Origin: Actinomycetes bacterium | GTDB lineage: Bacteria; Actinomycetota; Acidimicrobiia; Acidimicrobiales; JAJZXF01 | DNA: 38,171 nucleotides | Assembly (NCBI GenBank): GCA_021802485.1 | Contig: JAJZXF010000018.1 | Coordinates: forward strand, 1-38,171 | Reading direction: 5' to 3' | Shown here: positions 12,016 through 30,522 of the stretch, piece after piece | Numbering within the stretch: position 1 is the stretch's first letter | Layout: the number at the start of each line of letters is the position of its first letter | The notes under the pieces: generated by a model | Database searches by the model: none | What the model was told of the DNA's origin: nothing | The model's input: only the letters and a program-made list of their open reading frames with translations | Program-made: the position numbers and the translations under genes

Positions 12016-12058
12016 GACGCGTCGCCACCGTTTACCAGCCCAGTCCGATGTTCGCTAT

Positions 12059-12082
12059 CCCGGCCTGAAGGGCCAAGTTTGC
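12059..12082 (-). repeat. Partial type-A right-end hairpin, copy A5
   Basis: The minus strand reads CAAACTTGGCCCTTCAGGCC, close to the hairpin of copy A1 (GGAAACTCGGCCCTTCAGGG). The conserved block upstream and the TTCAC end are missing. It is probably another decayed end of the same element family. Confidence 0.35.
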
Positions 12083-12640
12083 GCTCACAAACAACGAGAT
12101 CAACCTCAAGCCGCCTTGCCTCTGCTGCGACGACAGAACGATCACCTACCTCCTGGAGAGCCGATCGACTCGATCTCGGTCAGACGTCCCAGTTCCGAGG
12201 CTCTGGGCCTCGTAAGTTCGGACCAACCGAGACTTCATACACCACTCGTTGGGACTCGACCCTCGAACCGCAAAGCGCGCTGGTCCCCCGCTGTCTCCTG
12301 GTAGTGCTCGTGCTCTTGGATGACCGCGACTTCCCTCACAGGCACTCGCGGCCCTTCCCGAGCTGACATGCGATCTGTCTCAGCGGCTCCTCGAGGTCTT
12401 CAGCACTGAAGGACTCGCCTGGCATGCTGGTGCCTGCGCAGGTCCTTCGCCGGGTTGACCGGCAGTCATGTCCGATCCGTTGCAAGAACCCAGTGGAATC
12501 CGCTGCGAATGTCGGGCGATTTGCAGGTCTCGCACATCACGAAGCCGGAAAACGAATTGCATCTTCACGCTTCTGCCCGCAAACAGCTACCGTGGGCGGA
12601 GCGACTTGGTGCCCAGTAACCTCGAGGCACGCTAGAAACA
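12083..12640. other. Non-coding or decayed stretch upstream of ddl
   Basis: Open frames exist on both strands, but none gives a protein I can recognise, and they differ in character from the neighbouring genes. It is most likely more transposon debris. A minus-strand piece near 12490-12545 has a cysteine pair (CETCKSPD) reminiscent of a zinc ribbon, too little to name. Confidence 0.4.
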
Positions 12641-12666
12641 ACAAGTTACAAGGAGACCCCAACACT

Positions 12667-13794: not shown

Positions 13795-14051
13795 CGAGCG
13801 GCGCTAACGGATTCCGGCATAGCCCACCTGGGTCCCCCACCATCGGAAATGTGCACGGGCACTCCCATCGGATCGCAGGAGTCGGTGATCTCTGTCGGCT
13901 CGGTGAGGATTACCGTGGTACCTGCGCTCGCATCCGCATCGATGATTTGCGAGGCAAGCTGACCAGCGTTGTGAATTGCGGTAGCAACTGCACTCGCGGG
14001 CGGGCCCAGCACGGCTGTATTATAGCTGTCTTGCACCGACTTGCGAGGCAA
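13791..14051 (-). CDS. Small hypothetical protein, convergent with ddl
   Basis: An 86-residue frame from TTG 14051 whose stop overlaps the ddl stop. It has an Ala-rich N-terminal half (AVLGPPASAVATAIHNAG) and an acidic, Thr/Pro-rich second half ending HISDGGGPRWAMPE. The composition looks protein-like and no plus-strand gene competes, but I recognise no domain. The frame is open a little further upstream (to ~14084) without a usual start, so it may also be the remains of a longer gene. Confidence 0.35.
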   Translation of the reverse strand: MPRKSVQDSYNTAVLGPPASAVATAIHNAGQLASQIIDADASAGTTVILTEPTEITDSCDPMGVPVHISDGGGPRWAMPESVSAAR

Positions 14052-14190
14052 GCGGCCATTGACGATTACGAGCGCGAGTGCCTATTGCGACCGTGGTTTG
14101 CCCAAAGCCTTGAACTCGTTGTTTGTGTTTCATGAGTACAACCGAGACAGTCCAACAGCTACGGCCAGCATGCTAGTACGCTCGTTGGCA

Positions 14191-14811
14191 ATGCGGTTCC
14201 ACGGGCCAATCCTGAACGAAGGCGAATCGATGGTCCTCGAGCTCAGACCGCACTGGTCTGTACTCGCGGCCCCTGTGGCGTCGTTCGTCGCAGCCATCGC
14301 GATCAGCATCACCGTAATAGTGGTTTTTCCTTCCGCTCCGTTCGAAATTGCATACGTGCTGCTTGCGCTGGTGGCAATCGCACTTACATGGCTCGTTATT
14401 CGCTATGTGAAAAGGGAGACAACCAGGTTCATCGTCTCATCTGCACGCATCCTTCAAAGCTCCGGCGTGCTGACAAGACGAGGCCAAGAAATCCCACTCG
14501 ACCGGCTCAACGACGTCTCATACCGCCAAGGCTTCCTCGGCCGCCTCATCGGTGTCGGTGATCTCGTGCTCGTCACGGGCGGTGAAGGCGACCGTATGGT
14601 ATTCCATAAGATCTGGCGTCCAGCCCTCACCCAGCAGATGATTGCCGGGGAAATTGCGCACCTACGCACACGGAACCTTGACAGGACTGCGGGGAAAGCC
14701 CCACTATCCATCCCGGAACAGATCGAGAAGCTAGACGAACTCTACCGAAGAGGCGTGCTCACGCAGGCCGAGTTCGAAGCGAAAAAGACAGATCTCCTCG
14801 GACGAATGTGA
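14191..14811 (+). CDS. Membrane protein with bacterial PH domain and SHOCT tail
   Basis: A 206-residue protein. Two membrane segments (~22-47 and 51-72) precede a YdbS/bPH2-type domain (~75-145; VSSARILQSSGVLTRRGQE, IPLDRLNDVSYRQG, LVLVTGGEGDRMVFHKI). It ends with a SHOCT motif (~171-206: IPEQIEKLDELYRRGVLTQ), a short oligomerisation module common in actinobacteria. Such proteins are usually stress-linked membrane components of unknown biochemical role. ATG 14170 and ATG 14191 are both possible; the conserved part starts at the latter. It lies alone between ddl and IS debris. Confidence 0.75.
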   Translation: MRFHGPILNEGESMVLELRPHWSVLAAPVASFVAAIAISITVIVVFPSAPFEIAYVLLALVAIALTWLVIRYVKRETTRFIVSSARILQSSGVLTRRGQEIPLDRLNDVSYRQGFLGRLIGVGDLVLVTGGEGDRMVFHKIWRPALTQQMIAGEIAHLRTRNLDRTAGKAPLSIPEQIEKLDELYRRGVLTQAEFEAKKTDLLGRM

Positions 14812-14834
14812 ACAGGCAAGGCGCATTATGGGTT

Positions 14835-14878
14835 GGTTTGAAGCCTCCTGGCCCTTTAGGGCCGGCAGGCATCAAACC
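14835..14878 (-). repeat. Long imperfect palindrome, type-B IS right end (B2) or terminator
   Basis: Two 20-nt arms, GGTTTGAAGCCTCCTGGCCC and GGGCCGGCAGGCATCAAACC, pair with only three mismatches around a TTTA loop. The minus strand contains CTAAAGGGCCAGGAGGCTTC followed by AAACC, matching type-B end B1 (GGCCCTTGAGGGCCGGGAGG then CTTCAA). It may be a solo transposon end. It lies 24 nt past the SHOCT gene stop and could also stop transcription, although no T-run follows. Confidence 0.5.
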
Positions 14879-15343
14879 AATTAATGGGGTGTAACAGTTC
14901 CTCGGGTGGATGCGCACTTGTCTTATCCGCGGCCTTGACGCCTCCCTTACGGAAAGGGGGTTGAGTCCGCAATTGAGATCATTCCGCTCAGCCTCTGTGC
15001 ACGGGCTCCAATGGATGCAACTGCCGGCTCCCGCTACCAGGAGGCTCACTCGTCCACCCCGGTCATGAGGACGCACCTGTTGCAGGTTGCCTATCCTTTC
15101 CAGCCGCAATTAGAGATCGTACATCCCGTAGCTATCTGAAGTAGCAGTAGCAGCGGACACCATCCGCGACGCCATGGACTTCACGGCCCGGTGATAGCGT
15201 ATCGTAAAGAGGTTTCCCCCAGCCTCTAGGGCGTTGGGCGCTACGATGATTATTGATTGCTCATTCCACATGTGAGGCAACACGGCTAGTGCGCCGTACG
15301 GCCACACAGCCAGCGGTTTCCCTGCGCCAGCCAGTGGGAGGAC
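14879..15343. other. Intergenic stretch before the PKS operon
   Basis: The minus-strand reading next to the palindrome looks like the proline/glycine-rich tail of a tnpB, but no domain remains. From ~15110 to 15343 I see no convincing gene. The operon promoter is expected here; I could not identify a convincing -35/-10 pair. Confidence 0.4.
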
Positions 15344-18300
15344 TTGTGGGACCAATATCTTGCGACCCAGGAAGGAGATCTGCAGACTTTGCGGATGGAC
15401 GAACGCGACCTCGTAATTGGGGTTACACCCTTTGGCTACTGCGACACTCGCCTTACCCTCGCGCTCATTCACTCCGGTGCTCTAGCGGTGCTCGATCTCG
15501 GGAAGAACCCCGACGCGTCGCGCTCCGCGATCTCTGAGATATGTGCACACACATCTCAACCCTTTGGCGTACGCGTGACCAGACGCTCTGGCCTCGCTCC
15601 CCAGTCAGTCCCCTCTCAGGTTGATACGGTCATCGTCGAACAGCCATCGCTTGCTGGCGACTGGCGCGGCAGGCGGGTGCTGGTCGAGATAACCTCGGTG
15701 GACGAAGCCCGATCCGCTGCGGCCCGTGGAGCCTCCGGTATCATCGCAAAGGGCTCCGAAAGCGGCGGGAGGATCGGCCAGGCGACTACCTTCGTGCTAC
15801 TCCAGCAGCTTGTGGATCAGGTCCCACTCCCCGTATGGGCAATGGGAGGAATTGGACTCCACACGGCCAGTGCCTGCCTCGTCGGTGGCGCCAGCGGGGT
15901 CGTAATCGACTCCCAGCTTGCCTTGGTCCAAGAGTCGTCTCTACCACCAGACGTGAAGTCGGCCATCTCGGCTATGGACGGCGCGGAGACCACCATGCTT
16001 GCTGGATATCGCGTCTACACCCGGCCCGACCTCCCGGTCGCGCGAATGGATCGCTCGATTGACCCATCCGGCGTTTCATCACGCCTCGGAGGCTCAAGCC
16101 TTCAAGAGCTCATCGCAGTCGGCCAGGAAGGTGCCTTCGCCGCGGATCTTGCCAAGCGATTCAAGACCGCAGGTGGAGTAGTGCAGGCGCTCAGGCGTTC
16201 GATCACGAGCCATATGTCGTCTGCTGTAGCGCTGCGCCCCCTCGCTCCGGGCTCCTCTTTCGCAGCAGATCACGGTATCCGCTACCCGATTGCACAAGGC
16301 CCGATGACGCGGGTCAGCGACCGAGCGGACTTCGCAGCTGCAGTTGCTAGCGCTGGGGCACTCCCGTTCCTCGCACTCGCGCTCATGAACGCGAAGGATG
16401 TCCGCACGCTGCTGGAAGAGACCGCGGAAAAACTCGCTGGTCGCCCTTGGGGTGTGGGGATTCTCGGCTTCGTTCCCCAAGAGATTCGCTCAAGCCAATT
16501 GCAGGTTGTGCACGACATCCGCCCGCCAGTGGCTCTTATCGCTGGTGGCCGCCCCTCTCAGGCCCGGCCCCTCGAGGACGCGGGCATCATCACATACCTG
16601 CATGTCCCATCACCAGGACTTCTGGACAGGTTCTTGAAAGACGGAGCAACTCACTTCGTCTTTGAGGGCAGAGAGTGTGGAGGCCATGTCGGGCCGCGCT
16701 CAAGCTTTGCTCTGTGGGAAAGCCAGATCGAGCGCCTGCTGGCCAGTGGATCGGCCAGCAAGGCCAGCGTCCTCTTCGCGGGTGGGATTCACGACGCGAG
16801 ATCCGCAGCTATGGTCTCCGCACTGGCAGCACCCCTCGCAGAGGCTGGCGCACGGGTTGGGGTGCTCATGGGAACTGCCTACCTGTTTACCGAGGAGGCC
16901 GTGAGCACGGGAGCCATCCTCCCCGGATTCCAGCAGGCCGCTATCTCGTGCAAGCAGACGCAACTACTCGAGACGTCTCCAGGACATGTGACCCGTTGCG
17001 CCCAATCGCCTTATGTCAACAAATTCACCGAGGAAAAGAACCGGCTGACATCGTCTGGGGCAACCCCTGAGGAGACCTGGGCAGCGCTCGAATCGTTGAA
17101 CCTCGGTCGGCTCCGGCTAGCAAGCAAGGGGCTGCGCCGCGACGGGGACGACCTAGTCAGCGTCGCGCCCAGTGAGCAACGCTCTGAGGGGATGTACATG
17201 ATCGGTGACGCTGCGACCTTGCGCCGCAGCGTCACCACAGCTTCAAAGCTGCACGAGGACGTGAGCTCTCGAAGCGCAGAGATCCTCGAGGCGGTCAGCA
17301 TCCCGGCACCGCCAACGCTGCACGGCGACGACGCTAAGCAACCAGCTGCCAAGAGCACGCCGGTCGCTATCGTTGGGATGGCATCCATCTTCCCAGGGGC
17401 ACGCGACCTTGACGAACTTTGGTCGAATTTGGTTGCTGGTGTCGACTCGATCACGGAGGTGCCTGCTGAACGGTGGAATGTCGACGCCTACTACGACCCG
17501 CAGGCCACCACCACCGGAGCCGGGAGCCGCACCCCGAGCAAGTGGGGAGGCTTCCTGCCTGCGGTCTTCTTCGATCCACTCCGCTACGGCATACCTCCCC
17601 GCTCCCTCGGCTCCATCGAGCCAGCACAACTTCTGAGCCTCGAGGTGGCCGCCCGGGCACTCGCAGACGCTGGTTACGCAGACCGGGAGATCGATCGCGA
17701 GAACACATCTGTCATATTTGGAGCCGAAGCCGGAACCGACCTTGCAAGCGCATATGGCTTCCGCGCCCTGTTGCCCGAGTATCTCGGCTCAGTGCCCGAC
17801 TGGTTGGACGAAACCCTGCCGAAGGTAACCGAGGACTCCTTCCCAGGCGTGCTCACGAACGTCATCTCAGGGAGGATAGCCAACCGGCTTGACTTCGCAG
17901 GATCGAACTACACCGTTGACGCCGCGTGCGCCTCGTCGCTTGCAGCAGTTGACCTAGCGTGCAAGGAACTCGCGAGCGGACACAGCAGCGTCGTGCTCTG
18001 CGGCGGGGCCGACCTCCACAACAGCATCAACGACTTCCTCCTATTCTCTGGAGTTCACGCGCTCTCCCCTACCGGTCGGTGCCGAAGCTTTGACTCTTCT
18101 GCAGACGGAATTGCCCTGGGGGAAGGGATCGCGTGCGTGGTGCTCAAACGGCTCAGCGACGCAACTCGCGACGGTGATCGGATATACGCGGTTATTGATG
18201 GCGTCGGCAGCTCGAGCGACGGCCGCAGCCTCAGCCTCACCGCACCCCGGAAAGAGGGTCAGAGGCTCGCGCTGGAAAGGGCCTACGAACGCTCCGGCAT

Positions 18301-21300
18301 CTCCCCTTCGAAGGTCGGGCTGATGGAGGCCCACGGGACAGGCACTGTCGTCGGCGACCGCACGGAACTCGCAACCATGACCGAGATGTTCACCGCCAGC
18401 GGAGCAAGTACCGGTTCATGCGTGCTTGGCTCCATCAAGTCCCAGATCGGCCACACCAAGTGCGCTGCTGGGCTCGCTGGTCTGATCAAGGCAGCGCTGT
18501 CGCTCTATCACGGCGTACGACCACCGACGCTTCACATCGAGGAGCCGAACAGCTACTACGACCCAGAGCGTAGCCCGTTCGCCTTCCTCAAGCGCTCCCA
18601 GCCCTGGGTCGACACAGACCGCCACGCTGGCGTCAGCGCCTTTGGCTTCGGCGGGACGAACTTCCACGTGGTCCTCTCGGCCCACGACGCGCTCGAACCG
18701 CCTAAGCATGGTTTGAACGTGTGGCCTTGCGAACTCTTCATCTTCCGCTCTGAAGATCTAGAAGGTGCAATGGAGCTCATGAAACGCGTCGAGCGCTTTG
18801 CAACCTCAGTGCACCCAGGCGAGACAGGTTGGCGGTTCAGAGATCTCGCACGCACGGTATGCACATCGGGCTCTGGCACAGTGCAGGTGGCAATCGTCGC
18901 CCAGGACATCGATGACCTCTTGGGCAAACTCAAGACTGCACTGTCGCAGCTGATCGGGGAAGGTTCAACCAGATCCATCTCGAACGAGGCCGTGCAAAGC
19001 CCTAAGGGGATCTTTGTTGCACACCGTGACGCTTCTCCGGGGAAAATCGCCTTCTTGTTCCCTGGCCAGGGTAGCCAACGCCCTGACATGCTTGCCGATC
19101 TGTTCATCGCATTCCCACGCCTTGGGCGCCACCTCCTTCAGCAAGAGCGCTGGCGCGAGAAGATGTTCCCCCCGGCAGCGTTCAACCCGACACAAGTTGT
19201 CGCGCAGCGCAACGCTCTGACTGACACCCCGGTCGCACAGCCATGCCTTGGCATAGCAGACCTTGCAATTGCACACCTGCTTTCTGACCTCGGCATCAAA
19301 GTCGACCTTGCCTCTGGTCACAGCTACGGAGAGCTCGTCGCGCTTTGCATCGCAGGAGCGATCGATGAAGGGGACCTGCTCGCGCTCAGTGAGGAGCGTG
19401 GGCTCGCAATCATTGACGCTGCTGGTGACGAACCCGGCGAGATGGCTGCCGCAGGCGCGTCTTGCGCAACGGTCTCTGAGATTTTGGAAGGCTTCCCGGA
19501 TGTCGTAATCGCAAACGACAACTCGCCTCGACAGGTCGTGATCTCCGGGCAATCAGCGGCTCTGCATAGCGCGACCGAGGCGCTCGCAGAGGCGGGAATC
19601 CCAGTCCACCGGCTTCCAGTCGCATGCGCATTTCACAGCCCGGTCGTCGCGTCAGCCCAGGATCGTCTTCGAAAGTACCTTGGATCGCTGAAGATCTCTG
19701 CTCCCAGTTTTCCTGTATGGTCCAACGCAACCGCGGGCCCTTACCCGGATGATCCGGACGCGATTCGCGATCTTCTCGCTTCGCAGGTTGCACGCGGCGT
19801 ACGCTTCACCGAGCAGGTGCTTGACATGTACAATGCCGGCGCGAGAACATTCATCGAGGTTGGTCCAGGGTATGTTTTGACCCATCTCGTGGAAAAGACA
19901 TTAGGCACAAGGCGCCACGTCGCTGTCTCCTCGGACTCACCCAGAGAGCATGGTGTAACGCACCTGCTCAAGATGCTTGCACGGCTTGCAGTGAACGGAG
20001 TGCACATTGATACAGACCCACTCTTTGAAGGACGCTCAAACACACTTGACCTGGATGCCCAGCCAGCAGCACCACCCGGCTGGCTCGTGGACGGCTATCT
20101 CACAAGGAGCGCTGACGGCAGCCCGATACCGAACGGCCTCCGCCCCGCGCCGGGCAACGATGCATCTGAACTCGGAGCCCAGCGGCTCGCGCAACTTGGC
20201 GGAGCAACGACATCATCGGCGCTTTCCGATACACGACTCGCGCTACAATCTGGCGCGGTCGCGAGCCGCACATATTCCTCAACAGCAGCCAGCTCAAAGG
20301 TGACCAACATGGACGAACTGGATGCGACCGTTATTGAATTTCTGCGCTCGATGCGTGAGGTCGTCGCCACCCAGCGTGAGGTCATGCTGACCTACCTCGG
20401 TGGATCACGAGGAACCACCTACGACCGCGGCACGCTTGACAGCGCTGCTCCCGCAGCAACCAGCGCTGCGGCATCCTCACCACGGGCAGAGGCGCAACGG
20501 GAGGAGATGGCTCTCACTCCCACCCAGAACACACTTCAAATCCACTCCGCCGCCGAGATCGCGGCCACCGAGATCGGGCCTACGATCAAGCCCACAAACG
20601 CAGGCCGCGAGGAGACCGCCCCCAAGGCCCTCGACGCGGCGTACCTTCTCGACACGCTCGTACAGATCGTGAGCGATCGCACTGGCTACCCTGCCGATAT
20701 GCTCGAACCGGACCTCGACCTCGAAGCCGATCTCAGCATCGACTCCATCAAGCGGATGGAGATTCTAGGCGAACTCGCTGACCGGCTCCCGCTTCCCGGC
20801 TCGTCCGATGGTCAGGTAAGCGACGACCTGATCGAGGAGCTGGTCCAGATCAAGAACCTGCGCGGCATTGCTGATTGGCTCGAGGCGAGGTCCCAAGAGG
20901 TCCCCACCGAAGCTGAGCCCGGCGCCTTGCCACAAGGCACTGTAGCGGAAACCTTGCAGCCTCACACGATACCGGAAAAGACATTGCGGTTCGTTCCATA
21001 CATCGAGGTCCTCGCGGATGACCCGTACGAAGCCGACCGATCCGTGCTCGCGGAGCGTAGGTTTGTGATCGTAGACGACGCGAGAGGCATCGCAACAGAA
21101 CTTGCGGCCCGCCTCGACAAGGTCGGCGCAATCGCTGAGGTAGTAAATGCAACTGCGGTCGCTGCACTGCGGTCCGCTGGGACATCGCATGTTCGAACAC
21201 CGGTTGACTTCGAAGAAGCTGACGGCCTCATCTACCTCAGCGCGCTGAGTACTCGCGACCACAACAGCCCAGAAGGTCACTCCGCGTCCCCAGCTCATGC

Positions 21301-22600
21301 TGAAGACCTCTTCGTGCTCGCGCGCCAGTTCCTCACAACCGCCCGGCATCCGCGATGGCTTGTAGCAGCAACCGGCTTCGGGGGGACATTCAGCATGCCA
21401 GAACAACAAACCCCACTGCTCGCAGGCTCCGCTGTTTCGCTGCCCGACTCCGCAGAGCGTCCAAGCAGCGCAGCTGCGAGCTTGCAGGGATCGCTTTCGA
21501 CGACAGCGCTCCCTGAAGGTGCAGGCATCCCGGGGCTCATGAGAACCATAGCGAGGGAGTACCCGCAGGTCGTCGCCCGCACGGTTGACGTCGACAACTT
21601 TTCGAGCCAAGCCGACATAGCAGAAGACATCCTGTGCGACCTGATCTCTCGCGCTCCTACGCCTGATGTTGGCCACCAAGGTGGCCGCCGCACGAGAACC
21701 CGCTTTCAACGCGCTGCACTCCCATCCTTGCCCACAAGCGAACGGGGCATCGAGCTCGGCCCGGAATCGGTCGTGGTCATCACCGGGGGCGCTCGCGGCA
21801 TCACCTCTTTAGTCGCTGTAGAGCTAGCACGTCGCTACGGATGCCAGCTGGAGTTGCTGGGAAGGTCTCCCCTCCCCGAGGGCGACGAAGACCCGGTCAC
21901 AAAGGATGCAAGCAGCCTCGCTGAAGTACGCAAAGCGCTCATTTCATCCGGGCTGAGAGACCATAGCGAGGTCGAAGCAACAGCATCAAGTGTCCTTCGC
22001 GCTCGCGATATACGAAGAACTCTTGCAAAGATCGATGCCACAGGCGCCGAAGCGAATTATCACCCAGTCGACGTGAGGGACGCCTCCGCTCTTCAAAACG
22101 TGATCGAGGACATCTACTCCCGCCACGGGCGTATCGATGGGGTAATTCACGGCGCTGGAGCTATCGAGGACAAGCTGATCGCGGACAAGACACCGGATTC
22201 TTTCGCTCGCGTGTTCTCGACCAAGGTGCAAGGCGCGATCAACCTCATCCGCCCCTTGCGCTCTGACGTAAGCTTCATCGTGTTCTTCACGAGCATCGCG
22301 GGAGCCTTCGGAAACCGCGGCCAGGCAGACTACGCGGCCGCGAACGACGCCCTTGTCGCTCTAGCGAGATCGCTCCAGCGACAAACCAGCGGACGGGTCA
22401 TCGCTATCGACTGGGGACCCTGGGCAGGGACTGGCATGGTCTCCGCAGAGCTCGAGCGCGAGTACGCGAAGCGCTCCATTGGCCTAATTCCTCAAGCAGA
22501 AGGCATCCAGATGCTCCTCAACGAACTCTCGCATCGCGCCCAGGATGACGTAGAAGTCCTCGTGATGAGGGCCGAGCCGGAGCACTTCGAGTTCACCTGA
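15344..22600 (+). CDS. PUFA-synthase-like type I megasynthase, NMO-like/NMO/KS/AT/ACP/KR
   Basis: A 2418-residue protein; residues are counted from TTG 15344. Domains: a 2-nitropropane-dioxygenase-like TIM barrel (~20-230; AKGSESGGRIG at 135-145); a second, full-length NMO/PfaD-like FMN enoyl-reductase-type domain (~310-650; EGRECGGHVG at 441-450); KS (~672-1115) with Cys862 in DAACASS, His997 in EAHGTGT and His1037 in IGHTKC; AT (~1233-1545) with GQGSQ, Ser1327 in GHSYGE and His1431; a linker; one ACP (~1765-1848) with attachment Ser1801 in LSIDSIKRMEIL, the PfaA-type signature; and a KR with inactive structural part (~1885-2110), GGARGI (2148-2153), Lys2294, Ser2317, Tyr2330 and Asn2334. 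KS-AT-ACP-KR is the PfaA order. AAGGAG at 15372-15377 favours TTG 15389 or ATG 15395 as the true start. It heads a six-gene operon and is probably iterative. Confidence 0.88.
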   Translation: MWDQYLATQEGDLQTLRMDERDLVIGVTPFGYCDTRLTLALIHSGALAVLDLGKNPDASRSAISEICAHTSQPFGVRVTRRSGLAPQSVPSQVDTVIVEQPSLAGDWRGRRVLVEITSVDEARSAAARGASGIIAKGSESGGRIGQATTFVLLQQLVDQVPLPVWAMGGIGLHTASACLVGGASGVVIDSQLALVQESSLPPDVKSAISAMDGAETTMLAGYRVYTRPDLPVARMDRSIDPSGVSSRLGGSSLQELIAVGQEGAFAADLAKRFKTAGGVVQALRRSITSHMSSAVALRPLAPGSSFAADHGIRYPIAQGPMTRVSDRADFAAAVASAGALPFLALALMNAKDVRTLLEETAEKLAGRPWGVGILGFVPQEIRSSQLQVVHDIRPPVALIAGGRPSQARPLEDAGIITYLHVPSPGLLDRFLKDGATHFVFEGRECGGHVGPRSSFALWESQIERLLASGSASKASVLFAGGIHDARSAAMVSALAAPLAEAGARVGVLMGTAYLFTEEAVSTGAILPGFQQAAISCKQTQLLETSPGHVTRCAQSPYVNKFTEEKNRLTSSGATPEETWAALESLNLGRLRLASKGLRRDGDDLVSVAPSEQRSEGMYMIGDAATLRRSVTTASKLHEDVSSRSAEILEAVSIPAPPTLHGDDAKQPAAKSTPVAIVGMASIFPGARDLDELWSNLVAGVDSITEVPAERWNVDAYYDPQATTTGAGSRTPSKWGGFLPAVFFDPLRYGIPPRSLGSIEPAQLLSLEVAARALADAGYADREIDRENTSVIFGAEAGTDLASAYGFRALLPEYLGSVPDWLDETLPKVTEDSFPGVLTNVISGRIANRLDFAGSNYTVDAACASSLAAVDLACKELASGHSSVVLCGGADLHNSINDFLLFSGVHALSPTGRCRSFDSSADGIALGEGIACVVLKRLSDATRDGDRIYAVIDGVGSSSDGRSLSLTAPRKEGQRLALERAYERSGISPSKVGLMEAHGTGTVVGDRTELATMTEMFTASGASTGSCVLGSIKSQIGHTKCAAGLAGLIKAALSLYHGVRPPTLHIEEPNSYYDPERSPFAFLKRSQPWVDTDRHAGVSAFGFGGTNFHVVLSAHDALEPPKHGLNVWPCELFIFRSEDLEGAMELMKRVERFATSVHPGETGWRFRDLARTVCTSGSGTVQVAIVAQDIDDLLGKLKTALSQLIGEGSTRSISNEAVQSPKGIFVAHRDASPGKIAFLFPGQGSQRPDMLADLFIAFPRLGRHLLQQERWREKMFPPAAFNPTQVVAQRNALTDTPVAQPCLGIADLAIAHLLSDLGIKVDLASGHSYGELVALCIAGAIDEGDLLALSEERGLAIIDAAGDEPGEMAAAGASCATVSEILEGFPDVVIANDNSPRQVVISGQSAALHSATEALAEAGIPVHRLPVACAFHSPVVASAQDRLRKYLGSLKISAPSFPVWSNATAGPYPDDPDAIRDLLASQVARGVRFTEQVLDMYNAGARTFIEVGPGYVLTHLVEKTLGTRRHVAVSSDSPREHGVTHLLKMLARLAVNGVHIDTDPLFEGRSNTLDLDAQPAAPPGWLVDGYLTRSADGSPIPNGLRPAPGNDASELGAQRLAQLGGATTSSALSDTRLALQSGAVASRTYSSTAASSKVTNMDELDATVIEFLRSMREVVATQREVMLTYLGGSRGTTYDRGTLDSAAPAATSAAASSPRAEAQREEMALTPTQNTLQIHSAAEIAATEIGPTIKPTNAGREETAPKALDAAYLLDTLVQIVSDRTGYPADMLEPDLDLEADLSIDSIKRMEILGELADRLPLPGSSDGQVSDDLIEELVQIKNLRGIADWLEARSQEVPTEAEPGALPQGTVAETLQPHTIPEKTLRFVPYIEVLADDPYEADRSVLAERRFVIVDDARGIATELAARLDKVGAIAEVVNATAVAALRSAGTSHVRTPVDFEEADGLIYLSALSTRDHNSPEGHSASPAHAEDLFVLARQFLTTARHPRWLVAATGFGGTFSMPEQQTPLLAGSAVSLPDSAERPSSAAASLQGSLSTTALPEGAGIPGLMRTIAREYPQVVARTVDVDNFSSQADIAEDILCDLISRAPTPDVGHQGGRRTRTRFQRAALPSLPTSERGIELGPESVVVITGGARGITSLVAVELARRYGCQLELLGRSPLPEGDEDPVTKDASSLAEVRKALISSGLRDHSEVEATASSVLRARDIRRTLAKIDATGAEANYHPVDVRDASALQNVIEDIYSRHGRIDGVIHGAGAIEDKLIADKTPDSFARVFSTKVQGAINLIRPLRSDVSFIVFFTSIAGAFGNRGQADYAAANDALVALARSLQRQTSGRVIAIDWGPWAGTGMVSAELEREYAKRSIGLIPQAEGIQMLLNELSHRAQDDVEVLVMRAEPEHFEFT

Positions 22601-22635
22601 GCCAGCTAGCACGCAATAATAGCGAAACTCACCAA

Positions 22636-25600
22636 ATGGCCACCCAGACTCGAAGAACAGCGACAGATGACGACTCGCGCATAGCGGTAATTGGACTTGG
22701 AGCGGTGTTCCCTGGTGCAAGCGACCTCGACACCTACTGGCAGAACATTATCGATGGCGTCGATTCGATCACAGAGGTTCCCCCCGATCGCTGGGACCGC
22801 ACCTTCTACGACCCAGAAGTTACATCACCCGCACGTTTTTACTGCAATCGGGGCGGCTTCGTTGACGCTCGCGCTATCTTCGACCCGACGGAGTTCGGGA
22901 TCATGCCGGTCAGCGTCGACACCGCAGAACCAGATCAGCTGCTTGCGCTACGCGCAGCCTCGCAAGCTCTCGCAAGCGCAGGAAACCCACACCAGCGGGT
23001 GCCAAAGGACCGGATCGGCGTGATCCTCGGACGCGGTGGATACCTGACGGCCGGCCTCGCCCGCCTGGATGCGCGTGTTCGAATTGCAGAACAGCTCATG
23101 ACCTCACTGCGCGAGATCCTGCCCGAGGTCGACGACCTCGCTCTCGAGCAAGTGAGAGATGCCGTGAACCGCCACCTCGGGCCCGAACATCCAGAGGCAG
23201 CGATCGACCTCGTCCCCAACCTCACCGCTTCACGCACCGCTAACCGCCTGGACATCCACGGTCCCGCTTACACCGTCGATGCCGCGTGCGCCAGCTCACT
23301 CATAGCAGTCGACAACGCTGTACGCGAGCTGAACAGCCACAGGTGCGACCTCGTGATTGCAGGTGGTGTCCACCACTGCCACGACGTCACGCTCTGGAGC
23401 GTTTTCACACAGCTGAAGGCGCTGAGCGCATCACAGGAGATCCGCCCATTGGACACGGGTGCTGACGGCCTCCTGATCGGAGAAGGAACCGGGGTGCTCG
23501 TCTTGAAGCGCCTCGAGGATGCGGTGCGCGACGGCGACCCGATCTTCGCCTGCATCGCAGGAACAGGCATCTCGAGCGACGGCCGCGGGAGCCTAATGAA
23601 GCCAAGCTCAGACGGCCAAATGATCGCGCTCAGGCATGCGTGGCAACAAGCGCGCCTCGACCCATCGAACATCGGTCTGCTGGAAGCCCACGGTACAGCG
23701 ACCCCCGCTGGAGACGAGGCCGAGCTCATTACGATCCGCCGTTTCTTCGGCGAGCGAACCCCTGGCCAGCCTCTAGCTGGAATCGGGTCGGTCAAGTCGA
23801 TGATCGGCCACGCTATGCCTGCCGCTGGCGCTGCTGGGATGATCAAAGCAGTGCTCGCAGTACACCACGGCATCCTTCCCCCGACGCTGCACTGCGAAGA
23901 CCCAAACCCCCTACTGCTCAGCTCTGCCTTCCGGCCGGTTCAAGCAAGCGAACCTTGGAGTGATGACGCGGCTACGAGGCTCGCCGGCGTCAATGCCTTC
24001 GGCTTCGGCGGCATCAACGCCCACGTGGTGATCGAACAGGCACCAGGTGGTGCGCGGCAGCGCTCGAAACCCGACCGGGGTGCTCGCCAACCAAGCGATC
24101 GCGACACACAATCGCCAGGTGACAATTCCAATCCAGGTCCCGGGCGCCTGCTTCGGCTCGCTGCCCACACGACTGAAGACCTGCTCCAAGCGCTCGACGC
24201 ATACGCAAGGAGCATCAACAGCGATAACGACACGGAGAACAGCCTCACGGTAGCTGGCGACGAGACGGGGGGCCTCCGGATCGCAATCATCGACGCGAAC
24301 CAGAGGAAGATCGAGCTTGCACGCAGGGCGATCGAGCGAGGAGTGCCGTGGTCGGGTCGAAACGATGTCTGGTTTGCCCCAGATCGCATGCTCCTTCATC
24401 GCGGCAAGATAGTCTTCGCATTCCCTGGCGTGGAGCCGATCTTCGAACCACGTTTAAATGACCTGATCGCCCACTTCAACCTGGAGCGCTTTGGATTTCG
24501 CAGCTACGACGAGCCAGGGGACGCTCGGGATGTCAATGACACCACACGCGCGGGTTCGCTGGCTCGCGAACCCAGCGGTTCCGCTGGCGGTCTATCGGGG
24601 CTCGAAAGGCATGGCCGGGATATAATAGCTGTAGGCCGGATGCTCGATGCCGCGCTCGCTCGGATCGGGATCCGCCCGGACATCGTCGTCGGCCACAGCA
24701 TCGGCGAATGGAGCGGGATGATATCGACCGAGATGATCCCTCGCTCGGAGATCGACGCATTCATAGACAGCCTTGGACTTGGGACCCTTGAGGTCCCAGG
24801 CGTCGTATTCGCGGCCGCTGCCTGCAGTGCGACTGATGCCTCACGAGCGATAGCAGGCATCCAAGACGTAGCTATCTCCCACGACAACTGCCCGCACCAG
24901 TCGGTGATCTGCGGCAGTGAAGATGGCATAAGGGCGTCCATAGAACGGCTCCGCGACATGAAGGTGCTCGCTCAGGTACTCCCCTTCAGGTCTGGGTTCC
25001 ACTCTGCGATGTTCAAGGAGTTTCTCCCACCGTTCATCTCCCACACTGCAAGGCTGCCCCTTCAGAAACCGCGCGTCCCCTTATGGTCATCCACAACGTG
25101 CGCACCTTATCCGGATGATCCGGACGAGATTCGCGCTCTCGTCGCTAGGCACCTCGTTGAACCAGTTCGCTTCCGGGAGATGACCGCCAACATCCACGAG
25201 GCAGGCGGTCGCGTATTCATCCAGGTAGGCACGGGAAGCCTGCCTGGCTTCATCAACGACACGTTGCGGGACAAGGACCATGTTGCGCTTTCCTCCAACT
25301 CCCCAAAGACCTCGGGGCTCTCCCAACTACTTCGTGTCGCGTGTGCAGTGTGGGTACAAGGCGGCCAGCCACTCTTTGAGCGCCTATTCGAACCGGACCT
25401 CGATGCAGCGTCACAGGCTCTTGCTAACAGTGGTATCCACGACACTCTTGCGAGCCGGCCACGTGCCTCCACACTGTCCTCGTCGCAGTCTCCGCCCGAC
25501 GCCGGAGTCCACGACACCTCCCACCAGCTACGCCTAGGCGCCCCGCTCATCCACCTCGAGAACGTGAAGCTCACCAACATGGGTGGTGTGGACCTCATCA

Positions 25601-27339
25601 GCATCCCGAGCGACCCGCTGCTCGCTGAGATGACCGCTGTGATCCAGGATGCAGTCACAGCAAGCCGCGAGGTCGTTGCTTGCTGGCGGAGTCGCTCCAT
25701 CGGTGTTGAGACAAAGGACAGCGCGACCGACCGCGCCGCGAGCTCGGACCCGTCTGCAGCCGATCGAGCACCATATGCGCGACCCGAGAAGCAGGGACTC
25801 CAGACCGAGACTCATCCCGGTCCACGCCAGATCACGACCAAGCTGACGGTATCAGTCGATACAATGCCAGCGCTGCTGGACCACTGCTTCTATCGCCAGC
25901 CAGATCACTGGCGCTCCGTCAGCGATCGATATCCGGTCGTGCCGATGACTGCACTGGTCGACATCATGGCCAGTGCAGCTGCTGCGATGATCCCAGATTG
26001 CGTGATCGTCGCAGTAAAAAGCGTACGGGCAATGCGCTGGCTGGTCGCTGATCCCCCGACGGAGGTCGAGGTGAGAGCCATGATCGAGGAGCCCTACCGG
26101 GTGCAGGTTTCCATCGCTGGCTATGCGCGAGCAACGTTCATATTTGCGCGTGAATACCCGCGCCCCCCCCAGCTTGTCGATGCAGCACTTACCAATGAAA
26201 GCAGTGCCGAGATCAACGCGTCCCAGCTCTACCGGGACCGCTGGCTCTTCCACGGCCCTTCGTACCAGGGAGTAGTCGAACTCGGCAACGTTGCGACAGA
26301 CGGCATTCGCGGCACCCTTGAGGCGCTTGATGCGCCTGGGGCGCTCCTTGACAACGCTGGCCAGCTCATGGGGTACTGGATCATGACATCCGTGGAGATA
26401 GACCGTCTCGGGTTGCCAACCTCGATCGAGCACATCCGCTACTTCGGGCCATCTCCGAGACCCGGCGAACGCCTGGAATGCACCGTGCGCATCCGGGAGA
26501 TCGCTGCGCATCAAGTCCGTGCTGATCTGGAGCTATACCAAAGAGACCGGCTGTGGGGGTTGATCGAGGGCTGGGTCGACCGCCGTTTCGAGAGCGACCC
26601 TGTTGTCTGGCCAGTGCTCATCTACCCCGAGACCTCGCTCATCTCGCAGATGCGCCCAGGCGGCTACTCCTTCGCAGTCGAGCACTGGACCACGTCTGCT
26701 TCACGGGATCTTATGATGCGCAGGTACCTGAGCGAGGCGGAGCGAGAGCAGTACGGTGCCCGCAATCCACGTGCTCAGCGCGAGTGGCTGCTCGGACGAA
26801 TAGCCGTAAAGGACGCGGTTCGCCACTGGCTGTTTCAGCACGGATCAGGCCCGATCTTCCCCGTGGAAATCGCGGTCTCGAACGATGCGAGCGGCCAGCC
26901 ACACGTCTCAGGCCCGTTCACCGAGGAGCTGTGCGTCTCGATCGCGCATACGCAATGGGCTGCAGTTGCCATCGTCTCGACAGCGGCACAGGTTGGTATT
27001 GACGTCGAGAAGGTGCAAGATCAAAGCGAGCGCTTCGCTGAGATGACGCTCGCAGACAGCGAACGGGAGCTGTACGAACGCAAAGGTCGCGAGACAAGAC
27101 AGCACTGGTTGACTCGCATCTGGACTGCGAAGGAGGCTGTTGCAAAGAGCGTCGGCACTGGGTTGGCGGGAAGGCCCCGTTCCTTTGCTGCTACAGAGAT
27201 GGATGCTGACCGGCTCCTCGTAAACGATGTGTGGGTCCGTACTGAGCAGGTGGGTGACTTCATAGTGGCATGGACATGTGATGAGCCCGCAAGCTCTCAA
27301 GTGTCCCCGAACAACGACAACGAGGATGGATACGCGTGA
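22636..27339 (+). CDS. Megasynthase KS/AT-like/DH-like/4'-phosphopantetheinyl transferase
   Basis: A 1567-residue protein starting 35 nt after the previous gene. Domains: KS (~15-468) with Cys218 in DAACASS, His352 in EAHGTAT and His392; an AT-like domain (~590-900) with Ser688 in GHSIGEW and His789 (GFHS), but the N-terminal GQG motif is replaced by FPGVEP (596-601); a spacer (~950-1060); a double-hotdog DH-like domain (~1065-1320) with LLDHCFYRQP (His1083), VVPMTALVDIM, FHGPSYQGV and Asp1239 in LDNAGQL; and a Sfp-type PPTase (~1385-1545) with SIAHT, GIDVEK (Asp1456, Glu1458) and WTAKEAVAK (1496-1504). The HxxxGxxxxP spacing of standard DHs is not kept. The PPTase could activate the ACPs of this operon. 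No ACP is visible in this protein. The stop overlaps the next start (GTGA). Confidence 0.87.
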   Translation: MATQTRRTATDDDSRIAVIGLGAVFPGASDLDTYWQNIIDGVDSITEVPPDRWDRTFYDPEVTSPARFYCNRGGFVDARAIFDPTEFGIMPVSVDTAEPDQLLALRAASQALASAGNPHQRVPKDRIGVILGRGGYLTAGLARLDARVRIAEQLMTSLREILPEVDDLALEQVRDAVNRHLGPEHPEAAIDLVPNLTASRTANRLDIHGPAYTVDAACASSLIAVDNAVRELNSHRCDLVIAGGVHHCHDVTLWSVFTQLKALSASQEIRPLDTGADGLLIGEGTGVLVLKRLEDAVRDGDPIFACIAGTGISSDGRGSLMKPSSDGQMIALRHAWQQARLDPSNIGLLEAHGTATPAGDEAELITIRRFFGERTPGQPLAGIGSVKSMIGHAMPAAGAAGMIKAVLAVHHGILPPTLHCEDPNPLLLSSAFRPVQASEPWSDDAATRLAGVNAFGFGGINAHVVIEQAPGGARQRSKPDRGARQPSDRDTQSPGDNSNPGPGRLLRLAAHTTEDLLQALDAYARSINSDNDTENSLTVAGDETGGLRIAIIDANQRKIELARRAIERGVPWSGRNDVWFAPDRMLLHRGKIVFAFPGVEPIFEPRLNDLIAHFNLERFGFRSYDEPGDARDVNDTTRAGSLAREPSGSAGGLSGLERHGRDIIAVGRMLDAALARIGIRPDIVVGHSIGEWSGMISTEMIPRSEIDAFIDSLGLGTLEVPGVVFAAAACSATDASRAIAGIQDVAISHDNCPHQSVICGSEDGIRASIERLRDMKVLAQVLPFRSGFHSAMFKEFLPPFISHTARLPLQKPRVPLWSSTTCAPYPDDPDEIRALVARHLVEPVRFREMTANIHEAGGRVFIQVGTGSLPGFINDTLRDKDHVALSSNSPKTSGLSQLLRVACAVWVQGGQPLFERLFEPDLDAASQALANSGIHDTLASRPRASTLSSSQSPPDAGVHDTSHQLRLGAPLIHLENVKLTNMGGVDLISIPSDPLLAEMTAVIQDAVTASREVVACWRSRSIGVETKDSATDRAASSDPSAADRAPYARPEKQGLQTETHPGPRQITTKLTVSVDTMPALLDHCFYRQPDHWRSVSDRYPVVPMTALVDIMASAAAAMIPDCVIVAVKSVRAMRWLVADPPTEVEVRAMIEEPYRVQVSIAGYARATFIFAREYPRPPQLVDAALTNESSAEINASQLYRDRWLFHGPSYQGVVELGNVATDGIRGTLEALDAPGALLDNAGQLMGYWIMTSVEIDRLGLPTSIEHIRYFGPSPRPGERLECTVRIREIAAHQVRADLELYQRDRLWGLIEGWVDRRFESDPVVWPVLIYPETSLISQMRPGGYSFAVEHWTTSASRDLMMRRYLSEAEREQYGARNPRAQREWLLGRIAVKDAVRHWLFQHGSGPIFPVEIAVSNDASGQPHVSGPFTEELCVSIAHTQWAAVAIVSTAAQVGIDVEKVQDQSERFAEMTLADSERELYERKGRETRQHWLTRIWTAKEAVAKSVGTGLAGRPRSFAATEMDADRLLVNDVWVRTEQVGDFIVAWTCDEPASSQVSPNNDNEDGYA

Positions 27340-27701
27340 GCGACCAAGTAACCGACCAGTACCAAGCTTCCCGCAGGGATCTCACCACGGACTCCCCTGC
27401 TGCGGGCGATGATTCCCGTGATGGCATTTACGACGAGGTCCTCAATACCCTCAGGCGCATGATAAGCGAGATCATCGGCGAGGACTATCTGATGGACATC
27501 CCGATAACCGCTGAAACCTCGTTCTCAGATGACCTCGAGATGGAGAGCATCGAGTTCGTAGCACTTGCCGAGAGGCTGACCGACCACTACGGCGACGCGG
27601 TCGACTTCGTAACCTGGATGGCGGGAATGGAGCTGGAGGAGATCATGGCTTTGACCACTGGCCAGCTAGTCGACTTTATCGTCGCGTGCATCAACCGGTG
27701 A
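27336..27701 (+). CDS. Stand-alone acyl carrier protein
   Basis: A 121-residue acidic protein. The first ~35 residues are unstructured and polar; residues ~33-115 form an ACP fold. The phosphopantetheine attachment site is Ser71 in DLEMESIEFVALAERL, where most ACPs have DSLE. Pre-attachment (TSFSDDL) and helix-IV regions (TTGQLVDFI) are present. The GTG start overlaps the megasynthase stop by 4 bp, so translation is likely coupled and stoichiometry set. Its partner activating enzyme is probably the PPTase fused to the preceding protein. It could carry the starter, hand the chain to a hydrolase, or supply the discrete carrier for the second KS-AT protein, which lacks its own ACP. Confidence 0.86.
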   Translation: MSDQVTDQYQASRRDLTTDSPAAGDDSRDGIYDEVLNTLRRMISEIIGEDYLMDIPITAETSFSDDLEMESIEFVALAERLTDHYGDAVDFVTWMAGMELEEIMALTTGQLVDFIVACINR

Positions 27702-27720
27702 GACGGGTGGGCCTCGCGAC

Positions 27721-28461
27721 ATGGAGCTGGTCGAAGCGAACGGAACCTTGATCAACACGCTCTGCATCGGCGATGGTCCTCCTGTGGTAATGGTCCACGG
27801 GCTCTTTACCGCCAGCCTCGCGTCGTGGTTCTTTACCTGCGCGCCCGAGATCGCACGCTCGCACTCCGTGCTCCTCTACGACCTGAGAGGACACGGCCGC
27901 AGTCCTCGCACGAGAGACGGCTACGACGTCGCCACGCTCGCAGGAGACCTCGACGCACTCACCTCGGAGTCCGCACCGTTCGCTCTCGTGGGCCACAGCT
28001 ACGGAGCTTTGATCGCTGCACGGTTCACGATCGACTCCCCTGGACGCGTAACCCGACTCGGGCTGGTAGAGGCACCTTTGAACCCCGCTCCAATTGCGGA
28101 CCTCGATGACGAGCTCTCCGTCCTCGCGGACCTGGCACGTGATGTGCGCCACAACGCCAAGACCCCGACTCCTCGCTCCCAAGCGAGCATCCGCGCCCTG
28201 ATCCGCGAGACGTCCATCCTCTCGGACATTCGCTCCGAAGAGCCACTACCCGACACATGCCTCGCTCAGATCCGGATACCCGTGCTCTGTGCGTACGGAA
28301 GCCGCTCCCCGTACCTCGACGCAGGTCGTCACCTCGCCTCCGTGATCCCTGATGCGCATCTCGCGGTGCTAGATGGCGGACACTCTCTCCACGTCGATTC
28401 CACCAGCGAACTCACCCGCCACCTGAAAGCTTTAATTGATGCGGAGGACGCTCATGCCTGA
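27721..28461 (+). CDS. Alpha/beta hydrolase, first of a pair
   Basis: A 246-residue alpha/beta-fold hydrolase. The oxyanion-region HG is in VVMVHGLF (22-29), the strand-5 block in LLYDLRGHGRS (51-61), the nucleophile Ser93 in GHSYGA, and the catalytic His221 in DGGHS. The acid residue is not clear; Asp200 in SPYLD is a candidate. It starts at ATG 27721, 19 nt after the ACP gene, and overlaps the next gene by 8 bp. In this setting a thioesterase or acyl-transfer role that releases or edits the ACP-bound chain is the simplest guess, but the fold alone does not prove it. Confidence 0.82.
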   Translation: MELVEANGTLINTLCIGDGPPVVMVHGLFTASLASWFFTCAPEIARSHSVLLYDLRGHGRSPRTRDGYDVATLAGDLDALTSESAPFALVGHSYGALIAARFTIDSPGRVTRLGLVEAPLNPAPIADLDDELSVLADLARDVRHNAKTPTPRSQASIRALIRETSILSDIRSEEPLPDTCLAQIRIPVLCAYGSRSPYLDAGRHLASVIPDAHLAVLDGGHSLHVDSTSELTRHLKALIDAEDAHA

Positions 28462-29272
28462 GGTGAAGTCGAACGGAATCACCTTTCACGTACAGCACCT
28501 GCGCAACGGCGACAAGACCGTCGTGTTCGTCCACGGACTCGTCATGGACAACCTGTCCAGCTGGTATTACACGCTCGCGAACTCCGTCGCTCAGCATGCC
28601 GAGGTATTCCTCTACGACCTTCGCGGACATGGCAGGTCAGAACGGCCCGCGACCGGCTATACCATCGATGACCAGGTACAGGACCTCTACTGCCTGCTTG
28701 AAACGCTAGGCGTGACCCGGCCTGTGTACCTTGCAGGCAACAGCTTCGGAGGTGTCATTGCACTTGCGTTCGCCGTTGCCCACCCTGAGAGGGTGGCCGG
28801 ATTGATACTCATAGAAGCTCACGTCGCAGTGGAGGGCTGGGGGGAGGTCATGGCTGGCGGGCTGAACCTTGCTGGACTCCTCCTCGATGACGCAGACGTT
28901 CAAGAGTGGTTGGACATCCAGGGTGGACGCAAGCTAAACCGCATGGCACGCAACGCTGAAGCACTCATCTGGAACAGCTCGCTCGTCGAAGACCTCAGGG
29001 ATGCGCCACAGTTCCACGAGAGCGACCTGCGCAGGATCACCTGTCCAACGCTCGCGATCTACGGAGAGCACTCTGACGTGCTCGATCGCGCGCACGAGCT
29101 CGCACAGCTGCTGCCCAACTGCGAGCTGAAGGTGTTCCCCCACCGCACGCACTCGGTCATTATGGAGGCCACCCCCGAGGTGCGCGCAGAGGTGCTCGCC
29201 TGGCTCGCGCACCAGGCGCCTGCGCACCCGGATGCGCTGCGCGCGACGGACAACACGGCCGGGGAGGACTGA
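28454..29272 (+). CDS. Alpha/beta hydrolase, second of a pair
   Basis: A 272-residue alpha/beta hydrolase with a clear triad: Ser97 in AGNSFGG, Asp208 in YGEHSDVLD and His233 in RTHSV. VVFVHGLVMD (23-32) and FLYDLRGHGRSERP (52-65) match the first hydrolase closely in position and wording, so the two probably arose by duplication. I chose ATG 28454 because GGAGG sits 6 nt upstream (28443-28447); the open frame reaches 28436. Having GNSFG where the neighbour has GHSYG suggests they divided substrates. One may act as chain-releasing thioesterase and the other as an esterase or acyltransferase. Confidence 0.84.
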   Translation: MPEVKSNGITFHVQHLRNGDKTVVFVHGLVMDNLSSWYYTLANSVAQHAEVFLYDLRGHGRSERPATGYTIDDQVQDLYCLLETLGVTRPVYLAGNSFGGVIALAFAVAHPERVAGLILIEAHVAVEGWGEVMAGGLNLAGLLLDDADVQEWLDIQGGRKLNRMARNAEALIWNSSLVEDLRDAPQFHESDLRRITCPTLAIYGEHSDVLDRAHELAQLLPNCELKVFPHRTHSVIMEATPEVRAEVLAWLAHQAPAHPDALRATDNTAGED

Positions 29273-29277
29273 ACGCT

Positions 29278-30522
29278 GTGGGACGATTCCTCTTTGTAGT
29301 TCCGCCGCTTCGAGGCCACGTGAACCCGACCATCGCAGTCGGCGAGGAGCTGGAAAAACGTGGACACGAAGTCGCGTGGGCTGCGCACGCTGATCTAGTT
29401 GGCCCGTTGCTCCCACGCGCTGCTCGAATCATCCCGATGGGCGCGGACGTCCCGCACGAGGTCATGGACTCCCTGACCACCCGCTCTGAAGGGTTACGCG
29501 GCGCAGCTGCACTCAAGTTCTTATGGGAGGACTTCCTCGCGCCGCTCGCCAGGTCCATGGTGCCAGGCGTGAATGCCGCGGTAGACACCTTCCAGCCGTC
29601 CGCGGTCGTAGTGGACCAGCAGGCAGTCGCTGGCGCTCTAGTCGCGAGGCAGCGCAAGCTACGCTGGGCAACCTCAGCGACCACCTCCGCGGAGCTGACC
29701 AACGCTCTTGATGGCCTACCAAAGGTCGCTCAATGGGTCCGGGACCAGCTGGTGGCCTTCCAGATCGAACACGGGGTGTCGCAAACAGACGCAAGCCTGG
29801 GCGACCTACGCTTCTCCGACCAGCTCGTCATCGCTTACACCACGAGAGAACTCTTCGGGAAGGAAGGGGACTTTCCGGCCCATTTTGCCCTTGTCGGTCC
29901 AGCATTTACATCCAAGAGCCGACCAGAGCAGACAGAGTTCCCGTTCGAAAGCCTCGCAGCTGACGTGCCAAAGGTGCTCGTCTCGCTTGGCACGGTCACA
30001 ACGGGAGCAGGGGCAAGGTTCTTCTCCACAGTGGTCGAAGCGTTCGAGGATGCCGCTGTTCAAGTAGTCCTAGTCGCGCCCGCTGAGCTGGTGCCCCGGT
30101 CCCCGGCCAACTTCATCATCAGGCGGTTCGTCCCCCAAACGGCCTTGCTTTCCCACATGAACGCAGTGGTCTGCCACGCTGGCCACAACACGGTATGCGA
30201 GTCACTTGCACACGGCCTGCCGCTCGTCGTCGCTCCAGTGCGAGATGATCAACCGATAGTCGCTTCACAGGTCGCAAATGCAGGTGCGGGCATCCGCGTC
30301 CGCTTCGGGCGAGTACGGCCACGGGAACTCGCCGCGGCAGTGGACGAGGTGCTCACCGACCCGGGATACCGCGCGGCAGCCCGTAGGATCCAGAACTCCT
30401 TCCTGGCCGCTGGCGGGGCCGTTGCAGCCGCTGATCGCCTGGAAGATCTCATAGCGCGAGAAGACTCCGAGCACCCAGGCAGCTCGGGCGGCGTCACTAC
30501 CACACCACCAGCGAAAGCCTGA
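29278..30522 (+). CDS. MGT/UGT-type glycosyltransferase (GT1-like)
   Basis: A 414-residue GT-B-fold enzyme. The N-terminus GRFLFVVPPLRGHVNPTIAV is the acceptor-side start of macrolide/UGT-type glycosyltransferases. The donor-binding signature is in the C-terminal half: RRFVPQTALLSHM (~281-293), VCHAGHNTVCESLAHGLPLV (~297-316), and APVRDDQPIVASQV. It probably transfers a sugar from a nucleotide donor to a lipid or polyketide hydroxyl; sugar and acceptor are unknown. The GTG start has GGGGAGG 10 nt upstream (29261-29267) and lies 5 nt after the hydrolase stop, so it closes the operon. No membrane segment or signal peptide is seen. Confidence 0.88.
   Translation: MGRFLFVVPPLRGHVNPTIAVGEELEKRGHEVAWAAHADLVGPLLPRAARIIPMGADVPHEVMDSLTTRSEGLRGAAALKFLWEDFLAPLARSMVPGVNAAVDTFQPSAVVVDQQAVAGALVARQRKLRWATSATTSAELTNALDGLPKVAQWVRDQLVAFQIEHGVSQTDASLGDLRFSDQLVIAYTTRELFGKEGDFPAHFALVGPAFTSKSRPEQTEFPFESLAADVPKVLVSLGTVTTGAGARFFSTVVEAFEDAAVQVVLVAPAELVPRSPANFIIRRFVPQTALLSHMNAVVCHAGHNTVCESLAHGLPLVVAPVRDDQPIVASQVANAGAGIRVRFGRVRPRELAAAVDEVLTDPGYRAAARRIQNSFLAAGGAVAAADRLEDLIAREDSEHPGSSGGVTTTPPAKA

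Follow-up and report, generated by a model that had tools for sequence, protein, structure and literature searches.

What does a polyketide synthase (PKS) gain from two TIM barrels of one enzyme family placed in tandem ahead of its ketosynthase (KS), when only one of them appears to be a working enzyme? The window (i.e., the whole stretch of 38,171 nucleotides that was analyzed, from contig JAJZXF010000018.1 of an Actinomycetes bacterium) encodes such a protein. The original prediction described its front as two modules of the nitronate monooxygenase (NMO) type, the second active-looking and the first half-decayed and probably noncatalytic, with Arg standing in for the motif III His; a structural, FMN-binding, or regulatory role was suggested for the first. 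Here, we follow both barrels through family models, structure prediction, motif conservation, selection, and distribution, and then weigh what the first barrel might do.

Organization of the Locus

The features of the locus are collected in Table 1. Protein 1 is listed with a TTG start, but an in-frame ATG at position 15395 is as plausible a start and agrees with the folded part of the AlphaFold2 model, in which residues 1-12 have pLDDT values below 50. The ketosynthases of proteins 1 and 2 both carry an active-site Cys, and there is thus no obvious chain-length factor (CLF), unlike the situation in the PfaC-type KS-CLF. In Streptomyces, a gene annotated as acyl carrier protein lies at the position equivalent to the free-standing ACP gene, and a similar order of genes (PKS, PKS, ACP, hydrolase, glycosyltransferase, and methyltransferase) is found on a Streptomyces plasmid. 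Overall, the locus appears to encode an iterative, reducing synthase that is complete and whose product is probably glycosylated.

Table 1. Features of the synthase locus (positions are those of the window; residues are those of protein 1).
Feature	Position	Strand	Remarks
PKS/FAS protein 1, ER1 (very probably dead)-ER2-KS-AT-ACP-KR	15344..22600	+	Open ORF, 2418 codons, TTG start as listed
Barrel 1, putative pseudo-enoyl-reductase	15401..16243	+	~Residues 20-300; predicted complete 8-stranded FabK-like TIM barrel with short lid
Motif III of barrel 1, AKGSESGGRIG	15746..15778	+	Residues 135-145; K136 replaces FabK Glu, R143 replaces FabK His
Barrel 1 strand 8 and loop, VVIDSQLA	15899..15922	+	D189-x-Q191 replaces FabK G-T-R phosphate loop
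Barrel 2, FabK-like FMN enoyl reductase (predicted)	16247..17311	+	~Residues 302-656; QGPM, EGRECGGH, AGGI, and MGT intact
Motif III of barrel 2, EGRECGGHVG	16664..16693	+	Residues 441-450; His448 in 144/144 readable sequences
Ketosynthase, protein 1	17357..18688	+	Residues 672-1115, active-site Cys (DAACASS)
Acyltransferase, protein 1	19046..19933	+	Residues 1235-1530, GHS motif
Acyl carrier protein, protein 1	20651..20794	+	Residues 1770-1817, Ser in DSIK
Ketoreductase, protein 1	21770..22441	+	Residues 2143-2366, YAAAN motif
PKS/FAS protein 2, KS (active Cys)-AT-DH-PPTase	22636..27339	+	DH is a double hotdog, weak profile match only
Free-standing acyl carrier protein	27336..27701	+	Overlaps 3' end of KS-AT-DH-PPTase gene
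Alpha/beta hydrolase 1	27721..28461	+	
Alpha/beta hydrolase 2	28436..29272	+	
UGT-like glycosyltransferase	29278..30522	+	Gene order matches Streptomyces sp. NBC_01243

Family and Fold of the Two Barrels

The Pfam NMO model PF03060 matches the two barrels separately, at 61.6 bits over residues 1-312 and at 62.8 bits over the 363 amino acids from residue 303, and both pass its gathering threshold of 28 bits. The FabK model TIGR03151 scored 69.6 bits (2.6e-19) with barrel 1 and 85 bits (5.4e-24) with barrel 2; neither reaches the equivalog cut-off of 453 bits, and the barrels are thus FabK-like rather than FabK equivalogs. FabK (enoyl-ACP reductase II) is nonetheless nearer to both than the nitronate monooxygenases are. 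The latter possess a motif II His near the FMN (xSFHFGx) as well as the motif III His (PMC13311796); in the motif II region, one pairwise alignment sets the barrel 2 stretch LIAGGRP against TTGAGNP of FabK, with no His in either. Membership of either barrel in the PfaD family was rejected on the scores of TIGR02814 (cut-off 449 bits), to which barrel 2 gave 14.9 bits and barrel 1 no match.

An AlphaFold2 model of the tandem (665 amino acids, 60-row alignment) contains two complete barrels, with a pLDDT of 94.9 and a pTM of 0.94; at that value over 665 residues, the predicted placement of the barrels relative to each other is confident. Barrel 2 of the model superposes on FabK 2z6i with Z 38.7 (1.9 Å over 312 residues). 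Barrel 1 modeled alone reaches a pLDDT of 92.4, and its match to FabK 5gvj extends from end to end and takes in the lid (Z 30.6, 2.5 Å over 270 residues); it is therefore taken to be an entire FabK-like barrel, albeit with a shorter lid, rather than a fragment. Two barrels of the NMO superfamily do precede the KS, as originally proposed, and barrel 1 is structurally of the NMO/FabK type; the NMO label itself needs qualifying, both barrels being closer to FabK, and their extents can now be given (Table 1).

Catalytic and FMN Motifs

FMN binding and catalysis in this family are associated with the Met of motif I, the ExGGH of motif III, whose His is proposed to be catalytic, and two phosphate loops, GG and GT (PMC13311796). 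These features were counted in 145 sequences, comprising 131 of a main group and 14 remoter relatives of a myxobacterial group. In main-group copies of barrel 2, Met321, Glu441, and Glu444 are each present in 131/131 sequences and His448 in all 130 that are readable there; in the phosphate loops, GG is found in at least 129/130, Gly510 in 130/130, and Thr511 in 122, with Ser in eight more. The 14 myxobacterial-group relatives also keep these features. Every broad feature of a FabK-type TIM-barrel FMN enoyl reductase (Met, His, GG, and GT) is therefore present in barrel 2 and nearly invariant, and its earlier description as active-looking holds. The active-site face of this barrel carries two further histidines, His420 and His483 (~16601 and ~16790), which were also invariant (86/86 in the first sequence set).

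Barrel 1 retains the GG (its GGxG loop), the second motif III Glu, G142, and the lid GQ, and has lost the Met, the His, the first Glu, and the GT. Both motif III stretches had been placed correctly by the original prediction, and Arg143 aligns exactly with the motif III His of solved FabK. The His itself, for which a check of this position had been proposed, is found in only two of the 145 relatives, the other 143 lacking it. As a specific replacement, Arg is not supported: position 143 is R in 76 sequences, L in 18, W in 12, F in 10, P in six, A and Q in five each, V in four, E in three, K and H in two each, and I and M in one each. A conserved role for Arg143 was rejected because its column ranks 160th of the 280 barrel 1 columns in conservation. 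Only the loss of His, and not Arg itself (76/145), is conserved. Within the main group, the motif I Met is Phe in 82/131 sequences, the first motif III Glu is Lys or Arg in 113/131, and the Gly of the GT loop is Asp in 121/131, with either Asp or Glu at the D189 position in 127/131. E139 (the second Glu) and G142 are invariant (145/145). Three FMN-binding or catalytic features are thus gone in addition to the His, and barrel 1 is very probably noncatalytic, as had been supposed; with the Gly-to-Asp change in the GT loop, the FMN-binding role that was also suggested for it appears unlikely.

Conservation and Selection

The 145 sequences share a mean pairwise identity of 37% in barrel 1 and 54% in barrel 2. 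Barrel 2 shows much stronger conservation on its strand-end (active-site) face, the predicted site of FMN and substrate binding, than on the opposite one (0.55 vs. 1.71 bits; 0/5000 permutations). The corresponding difference in barrel 1 is small and not significant (1.88 vs. 2.15 bits, p 0.12), which fits a domain whose catalysis is gone but whose fold is still needed. The helices are the least conserved class of barrel 1 (mean 2.35 bits), and variability is also comparatively high in the stretches that hold strands 1-5. One patch, formed by the ends of strands 6-8 together with the proximal lid, is highly conserved across phyla; it contains E139, G142, Q154, the GGxG at 168-171, and D189, together with Q191, E197, E215, R223, R227, and the GQ at 260-261. 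This patch makes a role in ligand binding possible.

Selection was estimated by the Nei-Gojobori method from the window and one genome of the same genus, a pair for which dS is 1.2-1.8; this is near saturation, and the omega values are accordingly approximate. They are 0.16 for barrel 1, 0.08 for barrel 2, 0.09 for KS, 0.14 for AT, 0.18 for KR, and 0.37 for the linker. Barrel 1 is under purifying selection comparable to that on the AT and KR of the same protein, and its omega is well below that of the linker.

Distribution and Origin

Both barrels were found in 80/80 of the best of 588 GTDB matches, in loci from Actinomycetota, Bacteroidota, Planctomycetota, Myxococcota, Acidobacteriota, Pseudomonadota, Chloroflexota, and others. 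Choosing these 80 by score biases the set toward complete tandems, and a search with barrel 2 only was therefore run on 1,571 genomes of five phyla (as given by the seed-genome titles), evenly drawn except for the seed genomes themselves. Matches were obtained in 9/396 genomes of Actinomycetota, 4/296 of Bacteroidota, 10/398 of Pseudomonadota, 29/235 of Myxococcota, and 6/246 of Planctomycetota, and the synthase family is thus present in about 4% of this sample (58/1,571). When the upstream DNA was searched with a barrel 1 profile, barrel 1 preceded barrel 2 in 58/58 synthases. One of these is divided between two contigs, and in a few the barrel 1 scores are weak (E 2e-5 to 1e-24); no barrel 2 without barrel 1 was seen among these 58 synthases from the 1,571 genomes of five phyla.

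When sequences of both barrels were placed in a maximum likelihood tree with 24 free NMO/FabK proteins, barrels 1, barrels 2, and the free proteins formed three separate groups, with support values of 100/99, 100/100, and 95/93. Because this tree has no root and the long branches leading to the two barrel groups join each other, it fits an internal duplication and two separate recruitments alike. To judge from these sequences, the tandem appears to be ancient and to have been passed on as a single unit.

A second, remoter branch in the Myxococcota sample (some of its matches at 33-43% identity) has the same two-barrel front, with EGxEAGGH in barrel 2 and often CGFEAGGF in barrel 1, and some of its members carry the tandem on PKS ORFs of 3,600-4,100 amino acids. 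In relatives on Beijerinckia and Methylosinus plasmids (loci 15992-28986 and 11284-21589, respectively), 3-oxoacyl-ACP-synthase-III-like genes and a PPTase protein stand in place of the second PKS gene, and the loci adjoin ABC and RND-type export genes.

The Role of Barrel 1

We consider it reasonably probable that barrel 1 is a pseudo-enoyl-reductase serving in cis as the dimer partner of barrel 2, within an iterative synthase of the Type M/N secondary-lipid class. Barrel 2 would be the working FMN-dependent enoyl-ACP reductase, passing electrons by a FabK-like ping-pong mechanism from NAD(P)H to FMN to enoyl-ACP, and would complete the reductive cycle with the KS, AT, ACP, and KR of its own chain and the DH of the neighboring one. 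Barrel 1 would no longer hold FMN in the normal way or protonate a substrate; it would take the place of the second ER subunit, fixing and stabilizing barrel 2 through what may be a FabK-like interface, and each chain would, through its fused dead partner, bring its own ER dimer. FabK functions as a dimer whose active sites work independently of each other (PMC12921513; PMC9260719), and thraustochytrid ERb needs ERc in order to fold and bind FMN, ERb alone being insoluble and flavin-free (PMC13311796). PfaD in its free form, like free FabK, is a homodimer. We arrived at the dimer-partner reading because the motifs of barrel 2 are invariant and those of barrel 1 are lost, because barrel 1 is nevertheless under purifying selection and retained in 58/58 synthases, and because the pTM of the tandem is 0.94; the dimeric state of FabK, the dependence of ERb on ERc, and the presence of KR, DH, KS, AT, and PPTase in the two encoded proteins point the same way. 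Among the roles first suggested for barrel 1, the structural one is thus favored, and a regulatory one is possible.

A pure scaffold would not need all that has been kept: E139, D189, Q191, E197, and Q154 of the old pocket are nearly invariant. It is conceivable, if somewhat unlikely, that barrel 1 is the ER counterpart of a chain-length factor, i.e., an ancient cis pseudo-ER found across phyla whose remodeled pocket (E139, D189-x-Q191, and K/R136) also binds a ligand and so tunes chain length or reduction. Alternatively, barrel 1 may primarily be a ligand-sensing or substrate-holding domain in which the remodeled FMN pocket binds something else, such as an acyl or phosphopantetheine arm or a nucleotide; it would then control flux or chain length, and its contact with barrel 2 as a dimer partner would be secondary. 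The strong conservation of the strand 6-8 and lid patch across phyla speaks for this, as does the fact that D189 and K/R136 are replacements and not leftovers from FabK; however, the active-site face as a whole is not significantly more conserved than the back, and the stretches with strands 1-5, whose loops would help to close such a pocket, are among the more variable. We consider this alternative rather unlikely.

That barrel 1 is mainly a docking module, guiding the ACP or protein 2 to the reductase and ketosynthase, would suit its position N-terminal to barrel 2 and KS in the loci read, and a two-protein synthase does need contacts in trans; yet the helices are the least conserved part of the barrel, a conserved surface was not demonstrated, and we judge such a role improbable. 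Catalysis of another kind, with or without flavin and with a different base (e.g., E139 or D189), could appeal to the invariance of E139 and to the acidic residue at position 189, but E139 belongs to motif III in FabK as well, where it is not the proposed base. The motif I Met, catalytic His, first Glu, and phosphate loop have all been lost, position 143 tolerates residues as different as R, L, W, F, P, A, Q, V, and E, and this chemistry is thus quite improbable. Finally, the loss of several catalytic motifs might suggest a decaying duplicate, but this was rejected as exceedingly improbable, and the term half-decayed with it, given an omega of 0.16 close to that of AT and KR, a complete fold with lid, and retention in every sampled synthase with readable upstream DNA across five phyla.

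Relation to Known Systems

Type M/N secondary lipid synthases are described, in the text of Shulse and Allen (2011; PMC3098273), as having uncharacterized products, and the text of a 2026 paper (PMC13291983) reports fused pfaDA and pfaBC-PPTase genes in Renibacterium and Flavobacteriales. As far as these texts go, Type M/N resembles the synthase of the window in consisting of two proteins, ER-KS-AT-ACP-KR and KS-AT-DH-PPTase, and in sharing the taxa Frankia, Chryseobacterium, and Aquimarina; we also found the two-protein layout in Chryseobacterium (DH undetected by Pfam) and in a planctomycete. Judged by layout and taxa, the synthase of the window would correspond to Type M/N, the published types themselves resting on KS phylogeny. 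The ER of Type M/N is termed a pfaD homolog in those texts, yet neither barrel of the window fits the PfaD model, and the label is thus a loose one. A doubled, half-dead ER region is not mentioned in the running text of either paper (PMC3098273 and PMC13291983), and a literature search for pseudo or tandem enoyl reductases within PKSs returned nothing closer than PMC13311796; an earlier drawing of two ER boxes in Figure 1 of Shulse and Allen is conceivable. The synthase type itself is therefore known, whereas its ER region as a live/dead tandem is without description in the literature texts found.

The barrels share with FabK their fold, motifs, and lid, and probably a dimeric habit, but are only ~25% identical to it, reach at most 85 bits against the 453-bit cut-off, and are fused to a PKS, the live-looking copy being paired with one that is very probably dead. 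The ERb/ERc heterodimer of the thraustochytrid PUFA synthase (9SDD; PMC13311796) is alike in that two TIM-barrel ER domains pair, one of them unstable alone; ERb and ERc, however, lie on separate proteins, are 75-80% identical, and both have the His and FMN, whereas the barrels of the window are in tandem and very divergent, and one appears to be dead. Barrel 1 is probably to barrel 2 what the chain-length factor is to the ketosynthase, the common principle being a catalytic subunit with a dead homolog; fold and reaction are different, and the likeness is one of analogy.

Implications

If the dimer-partner reading is correct, these synthases do not have a PfaD as their ER, and barrel 2 expressed without barrel 1 would probably be insoluble or flavin-free. 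The presence of two TIM-barrel ER domains, considered unique to thraustochytrids in a 2026 structure paper (PMC13311796), would not be confined to them and would be standard in a bacterial family found in about 4% of sampled genomes. The pairing of a live domain with its dead twin, known from the ketosynthase and chain-length factor, would then have evolved for enoyl reductases too.
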